A stretch of 47,080 nucleotides of DNA from Promethearchaeota archaeon (GCA_019894885.1 JAGXNP010000003.1:1-47080), one strand, 5' to 3'. Shown: positions 22,416-44,883, numbered from the stretch's first letter. The notes: a model not told the origin generated them from the letters alone. Made by a program: numbers and translations.

Positions 22416-22979
22416 ATGGAAATTAAAACTCCAAAAATTGATTTAACATTTAAAATGTGTATATTTGGAGATTCACATGTTGGTAAATCAACATTGATCA
22501 ACCGATATATTACTGCTAAATTTGATCATGACCTCAAGTCGACTTTAGGAGCGGCAATTTTGATGAAATTCATAGAAACGGAAACTACGAGAATAACACT
22601 TCAAATTTGGGATTTTGGTGGAGAAAATAGGTTTACTTCTCTTTTACCTAGCTATGCTCAAGGATCATCTGCAGCAATTTTTATGTGCGACATTTCTAAT
22701 CATGATAGCATTACGAATATAGATAAATGGTTCTTGAAATTTAACGAAGGACTGAACAATCGGGATCCAAAATTTCCTCTAATTATAGTTGGTGGAAAGT
22801 TGGACTTAGAAGAACAGCGATCTTTTAATAAAAAAGATATTGAAACTATCTTTACAGTACGAAAAGAATTTGATTACCTCGAATGCTCTTCAAAAACCGG
22901 AGAAAATGTAAATTTGCTTTTTAAAACTATTGTCGATAAAGTGTTGATTTATAGAAAGATTAAGCCATCTATAAGATAA
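22416..22979 (+). CDS. Ras-superfamily small GTPase (Asgard type)
   Basis: A 187-residue small GTPase. G1 is GDSHVGKST (18-26), the switch I Thr is in STLGAA (43), G3 is WDFGGE (65-70), G4 is GGKLD (126-130) and G5 is CSSKTG (157-162). The position of Ras Gln61 is Glu70, and the G4 Asn is Gly126, so nucleotide affinity and hydrolysis may differ from eukaryotic Ras. There is no C-terminal prenylation Cys. Such GTPases are numerous in Asgard archaea and are presumed switches for membrane or cytoskeletal processes. It is probably monocistronic; a histidine-phosphatase-like gene follows 69 bases later. Confidence 0.92.
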   Translation: MEIKTPKIDLTFKMCIFGDSHVGKSTLINRYITAKFDHDLKSTLGAAILMKFIETETTRITLQIWDFGGENRFTSLLPSYAQGSSAAIFMCDISNHDSITNIDKWFLKFNEGLNNRDPKFPLIIVGGKLDLEEQRSFNKKDIETIFTVRKEFDYLECSSKTGENVNLLFKTIVDKVLIYRKIKPSIR

Positions 22980-23048: not shown

Positions 23049-23777
23049 ATGGAAGGGGTAAACATTTGGGAAAATGCCAGTTGGACCGTACAGGCACGAA
23101 ACATAATTAAAGCTGTTAAGCAATTCCCAGAAAGCTCTAAAATAATTGTAATTCTGCGACATTCGCATAGAAATAATCCTAAAGAGTCTGAAAAGATGCA
23201 TGAGTTAAAATTAACACCTCAAGGTCATCAGATCGCTAAAATTTTTGGTCAAAAGTTACCCTTATCAAGAAAAATTAGATTGTTTCATAGCGTTGTAGAT
23301 CGCTGTCAAGAAACAGCAGAAGATATTTTGACGGGATTTGAAAGTGTTGGAGGAAAGGGAACCTTAAATGGAGCACTAACTCCGCTATTCCATGCGGGAA
23401 CCGCTCCAAAATTCTTTTTAAATGTTTTTAAAAATGAGTCCCCCATTGAATTTATATTTCGTTGGGCAGTTGGTTTCTATTCTCCTGATACAATAACCCC
23501 ATTTCAATCATACTGTCAAAATGCGGCGGAAATTATCTGGAAAAGAGTCAACGATGCTCAAGAAAGTGGAATAGATATCCACATCACACATGACATCTTT
23601 TTAATTGCGTTAAGATACGGGTGGTTTGGGTTACCTCCTGACCAAGAATGGATTCCTTTCTTGGGTGGTGTTGCATTTGTTTTAACCGAAAACGATATAA
23701 ACTTATTTGATAAAGATCGATTTTTCTCTATCCCTAATCCTTATTGGTGGAAAAGTAAAATTTCACCAAGACAATAG
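23049..23777 (+). CDS. Histidine-phosphatase-like protein (paralogue 2)
   Basis: A 242-residue paralogue of the gene at 3385-4125. It has IIVILRHSHRNNP as the RHxxR motif and DIHITHDIFLIALRYGWFGLPPD with the second catalytic His/Asp. The block WTVQARNIIKAVKQFPESSK and the ending NPYWWK are shared with the first copy. The RHSxR and THD motifs recall histidine acid phosphatases, but the enzyme lacks a signal peptide. Its position just behind the Ras-like GTPase may imply a shared pathway, which is only inferred. Confidence 0.8.
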   Translation: MEGVNIWENASWTVQARNIIKAVKQFPESSKIIVILRHSHRNNPKESEKMHELKLTPQGHQIAKIFGQKLPLSRKIRLFHSVVDRCQETAEDILTGFESVGGKGTLNGALTPLFHAGTAPKFFLNVFKNESPIEFIFRWAVGFYSPDTITPFQSYCQNAAEIIWKRVNDAQESGIDIHITHDIFLIALRYGWFGLPPDQEWIPFLGGVAFVLTENDINLFDKDRFFSIPNPYWWKSKISPRQ

Positions 23778-37142: not shown

Positions 37143-37895
37143 ATGAAGTTACACTCACTTTTTATTTTGACTAAGGCGGGAGCTTGTCTATACAGCAGAA
37201 ATATTACAAAAGATTTTGAGAATATAGAACCAAATCTGATAACACCTTTTTTCTCGGCTATTTTTTCCTTTTCTGAAAACGTTATTTCTAAAGAAACACC
37301 CGAAATCCTCGAAATGGGTGGTTTTAGAATAGTTTTCAAAGTAGAAGGTGAGCATATTTACGCTATTCTAGCAGATACAAGCGCTAATATTTTGTATATT
37401 AACTCTAGATTGGCTAGCATCATTCAAATATTTAAAGAATTCCTCCAGAATAACATAGTTGAAGATTACGAAAAAATCCAAAATAGCGACTTCGATGCTA
37501 AAATTGATTCGATTATAAAAGGGGAGGATGAATTATCTTCAAGTCAGCCATTATATAAAAAGATAATCGATCTTATTAAAAGATTAACCCTTGAAAACGA
37601 AATTCTTGGAGCAGCGTTATTTTCTATAAATGGAAATGTAATTTTTTCATCCTTACCGCATGATATATTATTGTCCTCTCTTAAAGAATTAGAAATTCGA
37701 CATATAGTAGCCAATGAATACTCCCTAACATTTTATAGTTTAGAGAACAATCAGAAAGTATTTTCGAGAATAATTGATATTCCCTGGAAGTTAGATCCGA
37801 TTTTGATAGTATTACTATATGAGTCTTCAGTCCCTCTTGGTATGGCAGAAGTGAATTTAGAAAAGATAACAAAAACTATTCAAAACATTATATAG
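37143..37895 (+). CDS. Longin-roadblock two-domain protein
   Basis: 250 residues. Residues 1-105 form a longin-like domain: HSLFILTKAGACLYSRNITKD, then the helix LITPFFSAIFSFSENV and the strands EMGGFRIVFKVEGEHIYAILADTS. Residues about 145-245 resemble a roadblock/LC7 fold (ILGAALFSINGNVIFSSLP and DIPWKLDPILIVLLYE). The two folds are related structurally and both associate with GTPases in eukaryotes, where they form Ragulator-like and Mgl-type regulators. It precedes the GGR-like gene by 90 bases. Confidence 0.8.
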   Translation: MKLHSLFILTKAGACLYSRNITKDFENIEPNLITPFFSAIFSFSENVISKETPEILEMGGFRIVFKVEGEHIYAILADTSANILYINSRLASIIQIFKEFLQNNIVEDYEKIQNSDFDAKIDSIIKGEDELSSSQPLYKKIIDLIKRLTLENEILGAALFSINGNVIFSSLPHDILLSSLKELEIRHIVANEYSLTFYSLENNQKVFSRIIDIPWKLDPILIVLLYESSVPLGMAEVNLEKITKTIQNII

Positions 37896-37984: not shown

Positions 37985-39250
37985 ATGTATGATTTTATTG
38001 TTATTGGTGCGGGAATATCTGGAACTTCATTTGCATATAAGGCTTCAAAGTTCGCAAAAACTCTTCTTATCGAATCGCAAGATTACCAACGAGAAATCCC
38101 TGTGAGAACTAACATTTTTGCTGAACACAATAAACCTTTTGTTGATGATGTGTTCTGGAACGATGATTCTATCTTTCCAAGACCATTCCTTCAATTGAAT
38201 TATAAAAGTGAAAAACATAATGGACTTTTACATTCAAAGGAGTTTGGAGCACCATTAGGAAAAATTTCTCATACCGAAATATTGATTCAAAAAATCATCG
38301 ATAAATTTAGAGATCAAGGGGGAACTACACTTTTCAATCAAACTGTTTCTAAAGTAGTCAGACACTCAGATCATATTGAAGTTATTAATAATAAAGGAGA
38401 ATCTTTTACTTCTAAACTTTTAGTTTTAGCAACAGGATCTCGGGGTTTTCCTTTGCAAAAATCTCTTGGTTTTCAAACTCCTGATTCGTTTATGGGAATT
38501 TATACTAATATTTACGCTGATGAATCCCTTCTAGAAGAAAATTTCAGTTTCCAATACATGTTTCATTTAAATCCTACTATTAGCCAAAACGGCCCTTTTT
38601 TCTTTAATGTTGGAAAAGGAAGAATTGCAGCCGGATACTTAGGGAATAAAGAAAATCCCGCAGAGCTTAAGGATAAGTTATTTAGAATCCTCAAGAACTA
38701 CCAAAAAATTCAACCTTTTCTAAAAGGCATAACTTGGGACGAATCTATTCCAACTATAAGTGGAGGTATTTCAAAGCATCCAATAAATTCCTTTTCAAAA
38801 GATCGCGTTATTGTGTTAGGGGAAGCAGCAGGATTAGTTACAGCATTTTTTTACGAAGGAATCTTATGTGGATTGGCTAGCGCTGATATTGCAACGAAGT
38901 TATTAAAACCTTTACTCGCAAATGATTCGAATTTTACTAGGGTTGAATTAAAAAAATACGACGATGAGGTCGCTCGAGTGTTATTCACTTATTTTAGAAA
39001 TGGCAATGCCTGCGAATATCTCTTTTATAATGAAAGTTCTTCAACGAAAACATTGTGGGATTCTTATACAAACTTATTAAATACTAATAAAACCGTGAGA
39101 GAATATGTCTACGAAGCACATATTAACCAAGATTTATCAACACATAATACTGATAACGACAGATGGGTTGGAGAAAGGCTTTTCGCTACAATACCTGTTT
39201 TTTCTAAAATGACGCTATGGCCAAAGTTCCTAAAAGCCATGAGTTTTTAG
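37985..39250 (+). CDS. Geranylgeranyl-reductase-like FAD oxidoreductase
   Basis: A 421-residue flavoprotein: FIVIGAGISGTSFAYKASKF is the N-terminal dinucleotide motif, LLVLATGS the second FAD motif, and VIVLGEAAGLVTAFFYEGILCGLASADIA the third, in the form typical of the geranylgeranyl reductase family. GGRs saturate isoprenoid chains of archaeal membrane lipids or quinones. Alternatives in the family include other prenyl reductases. It starts ATG 37985. Confidence 0.85.
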   Translation: MYDFIVIGAGISGTSFAYKASKFAKTLLIESQDYQREIPVRTNIFAEHNKPFVDDVFWNDDSIFPRPFLQLNYKSEKHNGLLHSKEFGAPLGKISHTEILIQKIIDKFRDQGGTTLFNQTVSKVVRHSDHIEVINNKGESFTSKLLVLATGSRGFPLQKSLGFQTPDSFMGIYTNIYADESLLEENFSFQYMFHLNPTISQNGPFFFNVGKGRIAAGYLGNKENPAELKDKLFRILKNYQKIQPFLKGITWDESIPTISGGISKHPINSFSKDRVIVLGEAAGLVTAFFYEGILCGLASADIATKLLKPLLANDSNFTRVELKKYDDEVARVLFTYFRNGNACEYLFYNESSSTKTLWDSYTNLLNTNKTVREYVYEAHINQDLSTHNTDNDRWVGERLFATIPVFSKMTLWPKFLKAMSF

Positions 39251-39460: not shown

Positions 39461-39952
39461 TTGGCAACAGATTATAGCGTAATATGTAAACTCGGAGGAT
39501 ATGTTAACAGCAATCCAGAACTCATTTCTTCCTATCCGTCACTTGATCAATCATTAAAAACAGAGATTCTACCAAAGTGTTTCCCAATTGGCGCTAAAAC
39601 TGGTGACTTTATCGTCGAAAAATATCGCAAATATGTTGTTTTATCTTATATTTTTAGGGTCAATCAAACAGCAGATAGAGACGATATCTTCTCATTATCA
39701 GTTCTACTTAATAAAAAAGATAAGACAGAAATTTACAAGCCTGTGCTTCAAAGTTTGATAGACAAATTAGAACAGAATGATCTCTTAAACGAGCATGTAT
39801 TAACTAAGAACCAACGAGCTATCTTTGAAGGGATGAACCAAGAAAAGAATGTTACTATTAGTAATGTCTTAATTGATCTTTCTAAAGTTTTTAAAGAAAT
39901 CAAATCTAAAATACTGAAACCAGAAATAAAAGTGAAAGGGAGTTTTTTGTAA
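39461..39952 (+). CDS. Longin-like protein (Asgard type)
   Basis: 163 residues starting at TTG 39461, after GGGATCG. The N-terminal half contains GDFIVEKYRKYVVLSYIFRVNQT, DIFSLSVLLNKKD, then the helix YKPVLQSLIDKLEQNDLL; this alternation of strands and a long helix is that of longin-like or profilin-like folds in Asgard trafficking proteins. The membrane protein at 39954 starts one base after its stop codon, so the two are coupled. Family assignment is tentative. Confidence 0.65.
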   Translation: MATDYSVICKLGGYVNSNPELISSYPSLDQSLKTEILPKCFPIGAKTGDFIVEKYRKYVVLSYIFRVNQTADRDDIFSLSVLLNKKDKTEIYKPVLQSLIDKLEQNDLLNEHVLTKNQRAIFEGMNQEKNVTISNVLIDLSKVFKEIKSKILKPEIKVKGSFL

Positions 39953-39953
39953 A

Positions 39954-40595
39954 ATGGCAGAAGATTTTTTTTTATCAAGTCTTGGAATTGTGGCTAATCT
40001 TTCGAGTGCAATATTTATACCTATTGCGACATTAATTTTAGGCAGAAAGCTTCTCAAAGACAAGAAAGAAACGGGAAAATACAATATTATACGATTAATT
40101 ATATTTCTTTCTTTCCTGAACTTCTCGATATTAGCAATCATCGAGTTTCTTTTAAAAAATACCCCGTTAATTCCACCTTTTATAGAAGAATTATATAGCG
40201 CTGAATTCGGTTTCTATAATACATCTGTAGCTATTAGGGTGACCTTAGGTCTTACTTTGATTTTTTATATTAATAGATGGGAAATATTACACTTCTCAGC
40301 TATTTTCTTCTTCATTGGAATGTTATTTCTTTATTTATTTACTGGGTTTTCCGCTTGGCTTGAGAATTACACGATTATTGCAGGAGTTGCAAGCATTCTC
40401 TTTTTATACTTTACGGCATTTCGCATGAAGGACAATGGCGCTCTTAGTATAGCAATCTTTTTCACCCTAACATTTAGTATTCAATTTATTTCTGAAGCAT
40501 TGGTCTCAGAAATAATTATTATAAGTTATGTAGCTTTTGTTGTTATCTTCTCACTGGGATTGTTTAGACCATATAAACAGGAGGTAAATACTTAA
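39954..40595 (+). CDS. Seven-helix membrane protein A of the longin/Arf region
   Basis: 213 residues with seven hydrophobic segments (about residues 10-32, 45-65, 88-106, 110-128, 135-153, 160-178 and 182-202). The first loop is basic (GRKLLKDKKETGKYN). No transporter or receptor motif is recognised. It begins directly after the longin-like gene and ends just before AGGAGGTAA that serves the next gene. Confidence 0.75.
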   Translation: MAEDFFLSSLGIVANLSSAIFIPIATLILGRKLLKDKKETGKYNIIRLIIFLSFLNFSILAIIEFLLKNTPLIPPFIEELYSAEFGFYNTSVAIRVTLGLTLIFYINRWEILHFSAIFFFIGMLFLYLFTGFSAWLENYTIIAGVASILFLYFTAFRMKDNGALSIAIFFTLTFSIQFISEALVSEIIIISYVAFVVIFSLGLFRPYKQEVNT

Positions 40596-40596
40596 T

Positions 40597-41247
40597 ATGG
40601 CGGAGATAGGTTTCTTGTTTATGGAACTCGTTTATTTTACTATGGGGCTGATGACTGTTTTTACTACATTAAAACAATGGAAGATAAATAAAAACAGAAT
40701 GTTAATTGCTGTATCAATATATGTTGCAGCGGTATTGGTAACATCAATCATTGATATTTCAATCTATCTGTTTGACTTTGATATTGATATCCTGATAGCT
40801 GGAGGATTGACAATTGGAATGATTCTCGGGTTCATATTATTTACGATTCAATTAGAATTCATGTTCTATTTAAAGGATTTACCTAAACTATACACTCTTC
40901 CCTTTTTTGCCAGTTTTTATCTTGCATTCGGAAAAGTGTTAGTTGACTCAACAATACCTTTTATAATTTACGCGATGATTGTAAGTTACGGATCTGCCTA
41001 CTTTCTCATCAAAGACGGAAGGAAAAGTCGTAACGGATTAGCAATCGGAATGGGGCTATTCTTTCTCATATGGGGCCTAGGACAGACATTTCAACTTGAG
41101 ACTATAATCATTAGCTTTAGAATAGTTGCAATGGTGGCACTCTTATTAGGTACAAGAGGTTTTTATGAGAAATATGTATTCGTCAATGTAGAAGAAGAAC
41201 AGAAAATAATGGGAACCTGGATTGCAAAATTGGTAGTAAAGGAATAA
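40597..41247 (+). CDS. Seven-helix membrane protein B of the longin/Arf region
   Basis: 216 residues with seven hydrophobic segments (about residues 5-24, 36-57, 66-90, 100-115, 121-139, 147-165 and 171-188) and a charged C-terminal tail of about 25 residues. AGGAGGTAA lies eight bases before the ATG, the strongest ribosome binding site in the region. The helix layout is similar to protein A, so the two may be paralogues and form a heterodimer. Function unknown. Confidence 0.75.
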   Translation: MAEIGFLFMELVYFTMGLMTVFTTLKQWKINKNRMLIAVSIYVAAVLVTSIIDISIYLFDFDIDILIAGGLTIGMILGFILFTIQLEFMFYLKDLPKLYTLPFFASFYLAFGKVLVDSTIPFIIYAMIVSYGSAYFLIKDGRKSRNGLAIGMGLFFLIWGLGQTFQLETIIISFRIVAMVALLLGTRGFYEKYVFVNVEEEQKIMGTWIAKLVVKE

Positions 41248-41511
41248 TAACGATTTTTTTAATTTTTTTCTTTTGCTATTAACCCAATCAGGGATATTAA
41301 TGAAATTTTAATCTAATTTTAGGTTTGTATTTTTACAATAGACTCTTTTTGTTCTACTGAAAAAAAGGAAAATAGGTTCAACAAAAAAATAATTCTGTGA
41401 CAATGTAACAAACAATAACATAAATAATTTCGTTTATAATTATAGTGTGTTATTATAGTTTCAAGATATAAATTATAGTACTATTTCTAAAACAATATAA
41501 GATAGAGTATA

Positions 41512-42408
41512 ATGGGAATTAAAGATATTTTGAAACGAGTATTTACTAAAGAAAAAAAAATTGTTATTACCGGACTTGACAGCGCTGGCAAAACCACCAT
41601 GATTAGTTTTCTACAGAATGGTACCTTTATGGAACATACACCCACAATGGGTAAAGAATTATCTCAAATTGAAGTACAAGGAATTCGTATAAATGTTATG
41701 GATATGGGTGGGCAAAAAGATTTCAGAGATTTATGGATTGGAGAAGCTTCGACTGCTGAGTGTGTAATATTTATGATAGACGCAGGGGCTCGAGAAAGAT
41801 TCAACGAAGCTAAAGACGAGCTATGGAAGTTATCTTCCATTTTTAAGAAGAAACCCCTGATAGTACTAGCAAATAAATACGATCTTCAACCTATTGCCTC
41901 TATTAGTGAAATTATTGCAGCTTTGAATTTGAAAGATTTACCCTCTTTTGAAGTATTACCGATTTCATGTAAAACTGGATATGGAATTGTAAAAGCATTC
42001 ATGAAGATGTACTATAAATTAACTGGTAAGCAACTGACCCAAAAGACAAGCCTTAGAGCTATTACCATTTTTGATCAGGGAGGAATTCCTTTAACATCAT
42101 CCTCAAATAAAGATATATTACAGGGGGGATTATTTACTGCCATTCATAATTTTGTGAGGGAATCTTTTAATTCTGAACTTGATCAACTTAAAATGGGAGA
42201 ACATCTTATCCTATTCAAACGATCGAAACATCTTATGGGCTCAATAATAGTTAATGATAATGATAATGTTGATATCAAAGAAGCAGAGTCAGGATTAAAT
42301 GATTTATTACTCCATTTAGAGCATATGTGTCCTGAGCTCGAGAAAGAACAATTAAATTATGGTAAAATCGAGTATTTAGTGGAACAATACGCTTCAAATC
42401 TGTTCTAA
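41512..42408 (+). CDS. Arf-like GTPase with C-terminal longin-like domain
   Basis: 298 residues. The N terminus MGIKDILKRVF is a short amphipathic helix with Gly2, as in Arf proteins. G1 is GLDSAGKTT (21-29), switch I Thr45 is in HTPTMG, G3 is MDMGGQ (63-68), G4 is NKYD (121-124) and G5 is SCKT (152-155), so nucleotide binding and hydrolysis residues are all present. Residues 180-298 form an extra domain (AITIFDQGGIPLT, QGGLFTAIHNFVRESF, GEHLILFKRSKHLMGSIIV) with a longin-like pattern. It lies 264 bases after the longin/membrane operon. Confidence 0.93.
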   Translation: MGIKDILKRVFTKEKKIVITGLDSAGKTTMISFLQNGTFMEHTPTMGKELSQIEVQGIRINVMDMGGQKDFRDLWIGEASTAECVIFMIDAGARERFNEAKDELWKLSSIFKKKPLIVLANKYDLQPIASISEIIAALNLKDLPSFEVLPISCKTGYGIVKAFMKMYYKLTGKQLTQKTSLRAITIFDQGGIPLTSSSNKDILQGGLFTAIHNFVRESFNSELDQLKMGEHLILFKRSKHLMGSIIVNDNDNVDIKEAESGLNDLLLHLEHMCPELEKEQLNYGKIEYLVEQYASNLF

Positions 42409-42525: not shown

Positions 42526-44883
42526 TTATTTATTATTGAACTTCTCTAATAAACCTTTTTGAAGCTTTTCTATTGACTTTTTAATGTTATCAATAAAAAT
42601 TTTAATCTCTTTTCCAAGATTTGGGTTAATATCAATTGCTTTCTCGAGGTTTTGAAATGCCGCATGGTAATCGTTCTTATCTAAATAGGCGTAACCCATA
42701 AAAAGCCAAGCGAACGCATAATTCGGGTCTATTTCTGTTGCTTTTTTATAGGATTCAATTGCTATATTATATTGTTTCTCGTGTTTATAAGCGTTTGCCA
42801 AATTATAATGGGCTAAAGTATAAGTGGATTCAAATCCAACTGCTATTTTATAAGAATCTATTGCTTTATCAAATTTATTTAATTTTTCGTAACTAAAACC
42901 CATATTGTTCCAAGCTTTTGCGTGATTTGAATTGAGATCAATCGCTTTTTTGAAGTACTCAATCGCGTTTTTATATTCTTTTTTCTCGTTATTTGCGATC
43001 CCGATATAATAATATGCATCGATATGTGTACTATCTAATTCTATCGCTTTATTACAGTCTTGAATCGCTGTATCATAATCTTTCCTTTCAATTTCTAATT
43101 TCGCTTTATTTATCAACTTCAATTTGTATTCGTATTTTATAGCAATTCGATTTTTAAATTCTGGGCTTTTAATTGATTCGTTAATTGTAATGGCACTTTC
43201 AAAGTGTTCAAAAGCATCTTTAAAGCTTTCGCTATCAGCCAATTGAATACCTTGTTCGACTAATAGTTTAATTTTGGAATAAAATACCTCGTCAATAGAT
43301 TTCTTGATCTGCTCCATCTCTTGGAATCTACGCGTAGGGTCATCTATTGTTTTTGCATAATCCATTTTTTTATTTAGTTTATCTAACTCTTTTTCAAATT
43401 TCTGGAGTTCTTCAGATAAATCCCCACGATCTACTAAGTCTTTTAATTCTGCTTGATACACTAAACCTTTTATTTTATTAATTTCTTCTTCCATTTCTTG
43501 AGTTAGGTACATTTTATTAGTCATTTCTAATGCTCTGTTAAAACTTTTAATAGCTTCGTTGTATTTTTTACTCGCCAATTTATCATTTCCCTCCCTAACG
43601 ACTTCATCTATCTGAGCCAAATACACTTTGTTGACTGTATTTTTTAAATCTTCTAAGTCTTCGTTAGTTTCGTCAGAGATTGGTAATCTTTTTGCTACAC
43701 TAATTGCCGCATATAGATCATTAATAGCTTTTTCGTATTCTCGTTGCCCAATTTTTTGAATAGATTTTTCTTTAATAAATTTGATTCGAATTTTGCAAGT
43801 ATTATTAATAGAATTAGTTATTTCCCTTATCTTCTCGCTTTTCTCGTTTGAATCAGGCATTTTATTTGCTAATTCTAAGGATTTGTCAAATAAATCTAAT
43901 GCCTCATTCACTACAACTATATCTTCTTCAAAGTTATCTTTTATAATTAATTCTTTTCCTTTATTAAAGATGGGTTTAATTTTCTCCAAATAGATTGGAT
44001 TTAGCACCATTGATGCGATTGAATTAATTCTTTGTATTTCTGATTTCTTGTAGTCTGTGTCGTACATATTTTTAGAGATACTTACAGCTTCTTCGAATTT
44101 TTGAGCAGCGTCCTCGAAAGTGTTTTCTTCAAATAGTTTTTTACCATCTTCCATGATTACATTTATTTTCTCTGAGTATAAGTGATTAATTAAATTTATT
44201 GAATTCTTTTTATCTGTGTTTTTTAAGTCAGAATCAAAATACTTATCCACTAGTTCCAAAGCATTCTGGTATTCTTCAAGAGCTTTATCAAATTTATTAT
44301 TATCTTTAAATTGGTTAGCAGTTTCAATTAGAGGGGAAACTTTTAATGAATAAGTATGATTAATAGTATCTTCAATTTTTTTAATCATTTGATCTTCTAG
44401 ATCTTCCATGTAAAAATCTTTTGCAGCGTTTAGTGTGTCGTATAGCATACTTATGGCTTTATCTAACTCCTGCTTATTCTTCACTCGGACGGCTTGAAAG
44501 AGAGATTCTTCGATCCTTGTTTTATTTATTAGATAACTAATCTCTTTAACTTCATAATCTCTCAAATCTTTATCTACTATCTTATCAGCAATTCTCGCTG
44601 CTTCGTCGAATGTGTTGAAAGCGGAATCAAAAATTTCATTTTCAATGAATTTTCTTGCCTCGTCAATGATATCAATGATTTTTACAGAATATATTTGGTC
44701 AATTTGGGATTTAATGTTTGCTGTTTCATCTAAGCGCTCCTCTGGTTCTTTAACTGACTCCTCAACGAATTTCAGAGCTTCTAAATACTTTTCAACAGCT
44801 TTATTGTATTCTTTAAGGTTTTTAAATTCATTCCCTTCTTGCATGATGGAATTAAGTTTCTTTAAGTCAGATTTCTTTACCAT
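42526..44883 (-). CDS. Large TPR protein
   Basis: 785 residues, no signal peptide or membrane helix. Residues about 1-587 hold ten degenerate units of about 57 residues, each with a helix pair and a third helix that ends near Tyr-x-x-Lys-Ile. Residues about 588-757 are five canonical 34-residue TPRs (AIEYFKKAIDLNSNH; AIESYKKATEIDPNY). The last helix is lysine-rich. TPR arrays bind peptides and build scaffolds; partners are unknown. The gene reads leftward and is convergent with the Arf-like GTPase gene. Confidence 0.9.
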   Translation of the reverse strand: MVKKSDLKKLNSIMQEGNEFKNLKEYNKAVEKYLEALKFVEESVKEPEERLDETANIKSQIDQIYSVKIIDIIDEARKFIENEIFDSAFNTFDEAARIADKIVDKDLRDYEVKEISYLINKTRIEESLFQAVRVKNKQELDKAISMLYDTLNAAKDFYMEDLEDQMIKKIEDTINHTYSLKVSPLIETANQFKDNNKFDKALEEYQNALELVDKYFDSDLKNTDKKNSINLINHLYSEKINVIMEDGKKLFEENTFEDAAQKFEEAVSISKNMYDTDYKKSEIQRINSIASMVLNPIYLEKIKPIFNKGKELIIKDNFEEDIVVVNEALDLFDKSLELANKMPDSNEKSEKIREITNSINNTCKIRIKFIKEKSIQKIGQREYEKAINDLYAAISVAKRLPISDETNEDLEDLKNTVNKVYLAQIDEVVREGNDKLASKKYNEAIKSFNRALEMTNKMYLTQEMEEEINKIKGLVYQAELKDLVDRGDLSEELQKFEKELDKLNKKMDYAKTIDDPTRRFQEMEQIKKSIDEVFYSKIKLLVEQGIQLADSESFKDAFEHFESAITINESIKSPEFKNRIAIKYEYKLKLINKAKLEIERKDYDTAIQDCNKAIELDSTHIDAYYYIGIANNEKKEYKNAIEYFKKAIDLNSNHAKAWNNMGFSYEKLNKFDKAIDSYKIAVGFESTYTLAHYNLANAYKHEKQYNIAIESYKKATEIDPNYAFAWLFMGYAYLDKNDYHAAFQNLEKAIDINPNLGKEIKIFIDNIKKSIEKLQKGLLEKFNNK

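Follow-up and report, generated by a model that had tools for sequence, protein, structure and literature searches.

A conserved Asgard gene cassette combining an Arf-type GTPase, an NPRL2-like longin protein and seven-helix membrane proteins

What is the function of an archaeal small GTPase gene that is found next to a longin-like gene and two genes for membrane proteins? The question is raised by a 47,080-nucleotide stretch of DNA from a Promethearchaeota archaeon (genome about 89% complete), hereafter called the window, in which positions 39461-42408 carry four genes that we named P1, P2, P3 and ARF. An original prediction, made from the nucleotide sequence alone, had read them as a longin-like protein, two seven-helix proteins of similar layout and an Arf-like GTPase, with the first three genes at near-zero spacing, and had suggested a membrane receptor or exchange complex for an Arf-like switch. 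All four genes were confirmed, and the spacing of the first three is indeed minimal, with gaps of 1 bp between P1 and P2 and 1 bp between P2 and P3; the gap between P3 and ARF is 264 bp. Analysis of related genomes revealed that P1, P2, P3 and the Arf-type GTPase form a conserved Asgard cassette, probably one for signalling.

Among 58 relatives searched, 20 genomes had P3 and 25 had P1; G042, a one-contig genome of the same order, gave no P1 match. Gene maps showed the order P1-P2-P3-ARF in the window's genus and family. Two genomes have tandem copies of the whole cassette (G002, L058/L059; G024, L071). Other families of the order have ARF first (ARF-P1-P2-P3), directly adjacent to P1 or overlapping it (L073-L075, L077, L078, L080), and at one locus of the window's own genus (L069) ARF likewise lies upstream of P1. 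The cassette is present across Lokiarchaeia and their relatives, including Sigynarchaeota and metagenome-assembled genomes (MAGs) of Prometheoarchaeum sp. (L166, L167). Two further families, both outside the class, came from a profile search covering 228 genomes of the phylum: Heimdallarchaeota and a family labelled f15. Both carry a compact cassette made of P1, a short Arf without C-terminal tail and one seven-transmembrane (7TM) protein of about 280 amino acids. These genomes contain several copies each, with up to seven P1 places per genome. In f15 (L108-L109, L111-L113) the compact cassette is mostly followed by a flavin-reductase-like protein and a protein of about 470 residues with a weak INTU/CCZ1-type longin domain, the latter encoded two genes past the 7TM gene, and the order of these downstream genes is the same in several genomes.

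Among 67 strong P1 places, a cassette-type Arf was found at most three genes away at 45, a cassette 7TM at 50 and both at 43; Arf and P1 occur with no 7TM at L074 and L078. As a control, 78 named loci were fetched by Arf similarity alone: cassette partners were present at 31, and the remaining 47 had no P1, P2, P3 or A6-type 7TM. Distances among 12 Heimdall cassettes are correlated between P1, Arf and 7TM (r 0.71, 0.67 and 0.85; Mantel p 0.0005). The outcome that the original prediction had named as fatal to it, operon genes never beside an Arf-like GTPase in relatives, was thus not what the Asgard genomes displayed, and the proposed tie to an Arf-type switch is strongly supported by this recurrence. 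The neighbourhood could still be inherited synteny with no functional coupling, and short-range synteny does exist in the window's family, where conservation extends to a longer block (longin, FAD enzyme, P1-P2-P3, Arf, TPR). The cassette nevertheless goes beyond chance, because its gene content is conserved across families and classes in two gene orders; these two orders and the Heimdall version already largely refute uncoupled synteny, against which the whole-cassette duplications and the other Arf genes without such neighbours also speak, and we regard it as hardly tenable. Some MAG members are frame-broken, through assembly error or decay (P2 at L066 3754-4254, P1 at L080 5812-6159 and a TPR gene at L062 5084-7362).

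The fourth gene encodes an Arf-type GTPase, as had been predicted. It matches Pfam Arf at 6.8e-34 (117.3 bits against a cut-off of 22.3), and the G boxes of its G domain (residues 5-166) are intact (GLDSAGKT, PTMGKE, DMGGQ, NKYD and SCKTG), which places it in the Arf family. The switch II glutamine (DxGGQ) is kept in every member of the Arf alignment A3, and the best PDB sequence matches are Arf-type chains (8oun, 8oum and Arl3). The score against Gtr1_RagA, 27.2 bits, is just above the cut-off of 22 and far below the Arf score. Residues 2-12 have a helical moment, computed from sequence, of 0.67, compared with 0.58 for ARF1 by the same script. The G domain is followed by a tail of about 120 residues that the earlier reading had missed, a longin/roadblock-like domain with weak similarity to LAMTOR families (LAMTOR3 chains, E 0.84) and to Fuz_longin_1, which 5 of 20 members matched (best E 0.0052). 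Asgard Arf-type GTPases (ArfR) and GTPase-longin/roadblock fusions are already known (PMC10933270, PMC12554972), and Asgard G domains that carry a longin or roadblock tail have been reported (PMC10933270). The cassette GTPases differ from the known ones in being fixed beside P1 and 7TM genes and in forming two separate monophyletic clades, Lokiarchaeal and Heimdall (support 100/99 each), whose sister relation is not resolved by the tree, which carries a long-branch warning.

P1 has no significant match in Pfam or NCBIfam. Its AlphaFold2 model, obtained with 33 homologues, is confident (predicted local distance difference test, pLDDT, 92.2; predicted template-modelling score, pTM, 0.85) and presents the canonical longin order b1-b2-a1-b3-b4-b5-a2, after which come short helices, a hairpin and a further helix. 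On this model P1 is a longin domain, in agreement with the first reading. The best PDB fold matches were SEA/GATOR1 chains, namely 8adl_S (E 9.9e-6), 9h4q_T, 6ces_N, 9o5d_D (template-modelling score, TM, 0.64), 9o5a_H (TM 0.63) and 7t3b_B (TM 0.63). Entry look-up identified 8adl_S as Npr2 and 6ces_N as NPRL2, and we infer from the PDB entries listed that the other four are NPRL2/Npr2 chains as well. Npr2/NPRL2 chains top the ranking by both E and TM, so that the closest longin to P1 is that of a GTPase-activating protein (GAP) subunit. Most other longins reach a TM of about 0.35-0.47; zeta-COP, a Lokiarchaeal roadblock-longin, Lst4 and adaptor longins are below the NPRL2/Npr2 chains in TM. P1 and the C-terminal tail of ARF are not recognisably paralogous by sequence. 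Weak, scattered Pfam/NCBIfam matches of P1, P2, P3 and the Heimdall 7TM (PriX, TgpA_N, DUF4293 and others) were dismissed as chance, and a PDB sequence search with P1 retrieved only designed helical repeats, matched through one helix, which were rejected.

In the P1 model, R73 is located in the loop between strands 58-67 and 75-83, that is, the beta4-beta5 loop, and it is invariant in the 33-row P1 alignment A7. The catalytic arginine of longin GAPs is located in this same loop (PMC12803157). SMCR8 Arg147, a longin arginine, enters the ARF1 site (PMC8213707), and Nprl2 Arg78 is described as the finger of GATOR1 that catalyses Rag hydrolysis in a title cited in PMC8213707 and is named in a passage of PMC9646525; the human NPRL2 sequence confirms an arginine at residue 78. 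The arginine is retained in 50 of 53 cassette P1s, and the other three are L127 (truncated, with an in-frame stop flagged at the locus), L080 (a frame-broken fragment) and L068 (a contig-edge fragment). Of the 17 P1 relatives that lie outside cassettes, eight have the arginine and nine have K, E, D or T instead; because contigs end at some of these relatives, a few of them may be parts of cassettes that are not seen.

A role as a GAP is more likely for P1 than one as a guanine nucleotide exchange factor (GEF), because its nearest structures are NPRL2/Npr2 and the arginine is kept at the finger position of longin GAPs; for the longin, the exchange role of the original prediction is accordingly not the preferred one. 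P1 might still be an exchange factor or recruiting platform of the Mon1-Ccz1, TRAPP core or MglB/RomRX type, activating Arf at the membrane together with the 7TM pair. Longin/roadblock dimers often are GEF platforms (PMC10933270), P1 is a bare longin without DENN, and the 7TM genes share its operon. However, its fold is nearest to the GAP subunit and not to Mon1-Ccz1 or TRAPP longins, and the arginine at the GAP finger position is retained specifically in cassettes; we judge this alternative unlikely, though not negligible. A membrane-remodelling or trafficking unit would give P2 and P3 the role of cargo or coat anchors, Arf that of recruiting effectors and P1 that of a structural longin, as in zeta-COP or SRX-SRbeta. 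Zeta-COP and adaptor longins are among the P1 fold matches, and Asgard Arf-type proteins have been reported as membrane-associated (Vargova 2025 and Zhu 2025, as summarised in PMC12554972). Those longins rank below NPRL2 in TM-score, though, and the conserved loop arginine would be left unexplained; such a unit is distinctly unlikely.

P2 and P3 are paralogues (profile comparison, E 5.8e-10), which bears out the similar layout noticed initially. The AlphaFold2 model of P3 (pLDDT 85.7, pTM 0.78) contains seven helices, with a beta hairpin between TM2 and TM3 and with helices on the cytoplasmic side at the C-terminus, and P2 displays seven hydropathy peaks. Positive charge on loops 1, 3 and 5 and on the C-terminus of P3 clearly indicates an N-terminus outside and a C-terminus inside (N-out/C-in), a pattern that P2 fits less strongly, mainly at loop 1 and the C-terminus. 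No Pfam family match was obtained for P2, P3 or the compact-cassette 7TM, and comparison of P3 with a viral fold library yielded nothing significant. The top 50 fold matches of P3 are almost all G-protein-coupled receptors (GPCRs), which are non-significant matches to a class heavily represented in the PDB. Like GPCRs, the cassette proteins are predicted 7TM bundles with the N-terminus outside and the C-terminus inside, and their genes stand beside that of an Arf-family GTPase; unlike GPCRs, P2 and P3 are paired proteins of about 215 amino acids, and no significant sequence or fold similarity to GPCRs was detected (Pfam; fold E 0.024). The receptor part of the original proposal is therefore plausible but unproven.

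Direct homology of P2 and P3 to the Heimdall 7TM was not significant (hhalign), and comparison with a wider Asgard 7TM family gave 88% probability for P3 and 26% for P2, so kinship is no more than likely. This wider family, which includes the compact-cassette 7TM, consists of 7TM proteins of about 250 amino acids with the C-terminal motif YLG[YW]IMPDW; it occurs in 69 of the 228 genomes and has no Pfam model (e.g. G000:C279:9235-9552, L239-L255). The 7TM proteins could alternatively be transporters or enzymes, with the Arf/P1 pair regulating their activity or placement and receiving no signal from them. Consistent with this, no function is known for the 7TM family, and the compact-cassette 7TM has wide relatives that occur without Arf or P1. 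Against it, P2 and P3 are small, with very short loops and few invariant residues, and their N-out/C-in 7TM layout is sensor-like; we consider this alternative very unlikely.

P2 is almost confined to cassette-bearing genomes; the exceptions are G151 and G152, where it adjoins a zinc-ribbon protein, and G133, with a marginal match. A segment resembling a zinc ribbon (CPxC ... CEHxFxAYVDRxFxxRxY) occurs in fusion with P3 or with a P1 relative, or is encoded next to P2 relatives that stand alone. It is carried on the C-terminus of P3 at L072 8388-9350, L075 1782-2855 and L077 10491-11465, and further sites are L076 9717-10400, L276 5118-5963 and L277 6396-7247. This segment looks like a further recurring partner of the cassette system.

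The reading that we favour, and on balance think probable, is that an Arf switch associated with the membrane has a longin-type GAP of its own, P1, and is coupled to sensor-like proteins with seven helices. The GTPase would be the switch, and its N-terminal amphipathic helix would carry the GTP form to the membrane. P1 would act as a dedicated longin-type GAP by the mechanism of NPRL2 and SMCR8, inserting its beta4-beta5 arginine into the active site of the GTPase. It would probably pair with a second longin-type domain, which in Lokiarchaeia may be the C-terminal tail of the GTPase and in compact cassettes either a separate protein (in f15, the CCZ1/INTU-like longin protein is a candidate) or a second P1. 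P2 and P3, or the single 7TM of the compact version, would provide the membrane input, anchoring the switch and coupling it to an outside or membrane signal, with control passing from them to the switch through P1 or by the promotion of nucleotide exchange. At L142 6073-6900 (G164), P1 is joined directly to the C-terminal domain of a cassette GTPase and the G domain is missing. This may be a real longin-longin fusion, which would make it a candidate case of the pairing, or the scar of a deletion.

Several observations weigh against the proposal of an Arf switch with its own longin GAP. The profile-sequence comparison of P1 with NPRL2 (hhalign) was not significant, and Pfam NPR2 (PF06218) was above its curated cut-off in 0 of the 228 Asgard genomes; the likeness is for this reason structural and not one of sequence, and the idea that P1 is by sequence an ordinary NPR2 family member was rejected. 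P1 also lacks the DENN half of known longin GAPs, its 163-residue model finishing after a helix, and longin platforms serve as GEFs or scaffolds too (PMC10933270). The non-cassette P1 relatives used in the arginine comparison are not phylogenetically independent of one another. The PDB fold search with P3 gave no significant match (best E 0.024, TM about 0.27-0.50). In the window, ARF lies 264 bp from P3 and may be under a separate promoter. Finally, P1-7TM pairs stand without an adjacent Arf at six Heimdall places (L116, L117, L119, L123, L124 and L128); these pairs keep the conserved arginine, and their GTPase, if any, must be elsewhere.

Comparison with known systems places P1 closest to NPRL2/Npr2, the catalytic GAP subunit of GATOR1/SEACIT that acts on RagA/Gtr1. 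The two share the longin fold, the beta4-beta5 arginine and, less certainly, the helix/hairpin part that follows, with a TM of at most 0.64 over 150-170 columns. They differ in that P1 has no DENN and no significant sequence similarity, is encoded with 7TM proteins and has a proposed substrate of the Arf type instead of Rag. Action of a longin arginine finger on an Arf-family GTPase is established for C9orf72-SMCR8 (PMC8213707), and P1 is proposed to act likewise; those are large longin-DENN proteins, however, and P1 resembles them weakly in fold (7mge_C TM 0.28, 6v4u_A TM 0.43). MglA-MglB, as presented in a passage of PMC9481161, is also a prokaryotic small GTPase under a GAP of the roadblock/longin superfamily, but MglB is a roadblock protein and has no 7TM partners. 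P1 could belong to the "NPRL2-like longin domain" category of eukaryotic signature proteins enriched in Ca. Lokiarchaeum ossiferum, for which the relevant passage of PMC9834061 gives the category name only and describes no operon with Arf and 7TM genes. A literature search found no paper describing this cassette, an absence that is no proof.

Table 1. Features of the locus, in window coordinates.
Feature	Position	Strand	Description
P1	39461-39952	+	163 aa, TTG start; single longin domain with short C-terminal helix/hairpin extension; NPRL2-like fold; proposed GAP
R73 codon (AGA) of P1	39677-39679	+	beta4-beta5 loop; proposed arginine finger
P2	39954-40595	+	213 aa; seven-helix membrane protein, probable N-out topology
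P3	40597-41247	+	216 aa; seven-helix membrane protein, N-out/C-in
ARF	41512-42408	+	298 aa; Arf-type GTPase with intact G boxes and C-terminal domain
C-terminal longin/roadblock-like domain of ARF	42040-42405	+	weak Fuz_longin_1 and LAMTOR matches
Upstream longin-type protein	37143-37895	+	Fuz_longin_1 E 0.0027, below cut-off; synteny in window's family only
Flavin adenine dinucleotide (FAD) oxidoreductase, geranylgeranyl-reductase superfamily	37985-39250	+	NCBIfam GG-red-SF 5.5e-21, below cut-off; synteny

The original prediction had also placed a longin-roadblock protein 1.6 kb upstream of the cassette. A gene is present there, but its longin match is weak and the syntenic FAD oxidoreductase gene intervenes. 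One relative of this upstream protein matches the ARF-tail profile at 2e-5, and gene maps confine its synteny to the window's own family; a putative link to the cassette is unproven. Downstream of the GTPase, a gene syntenic in the window's family (42526-44883, minus strand) encodes a TPR protein of 785 amino acids with an MIT-like match (PF04212, 4.2e-7) just above the cut-off. The window contains a second Ras-superfamily small GTPase (22416-22979), which adjoins a histidine-phosphatase-like protein (23049-23777).

Asgard archaea encode dozens of small GTPases whose regulators are hard to pair with them. In MK-D1, GTPase genes are generally not in operons with roadblock or longin genes, making it difficult to match GAPs or GEFs to them (PMC10933270), and the cassette is an exception to this generalisation: across classes it keeps a GTPase together with a GAP-like longin and membrane proteins, and the putative GTPase-GAP pair is therefore directly testable. 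Should P1 prove to be an Arf GAP, a prokaryotic protein standing alone would be the counterpart of the catalytic longin of GATOR1, FLCN and SMCR8, and the 7TM partners would be candidate upstream inputs to a prokaryotic Arf-type switch. More tentatively, and in our view less likely than not, the cassette could be an archaeal receptor-to-GTPase signalling unit, in which an Arf-family switch would be gated by receptors with seven helices and turned off by a minimal longin GAP with an arginine finger. If so, the longin GAPs of mTORC1 control (GATOR1, FLCN, C9orf72) would be rooted in Asgard archaea, and so would the logic of receptor-coupled G proteins.

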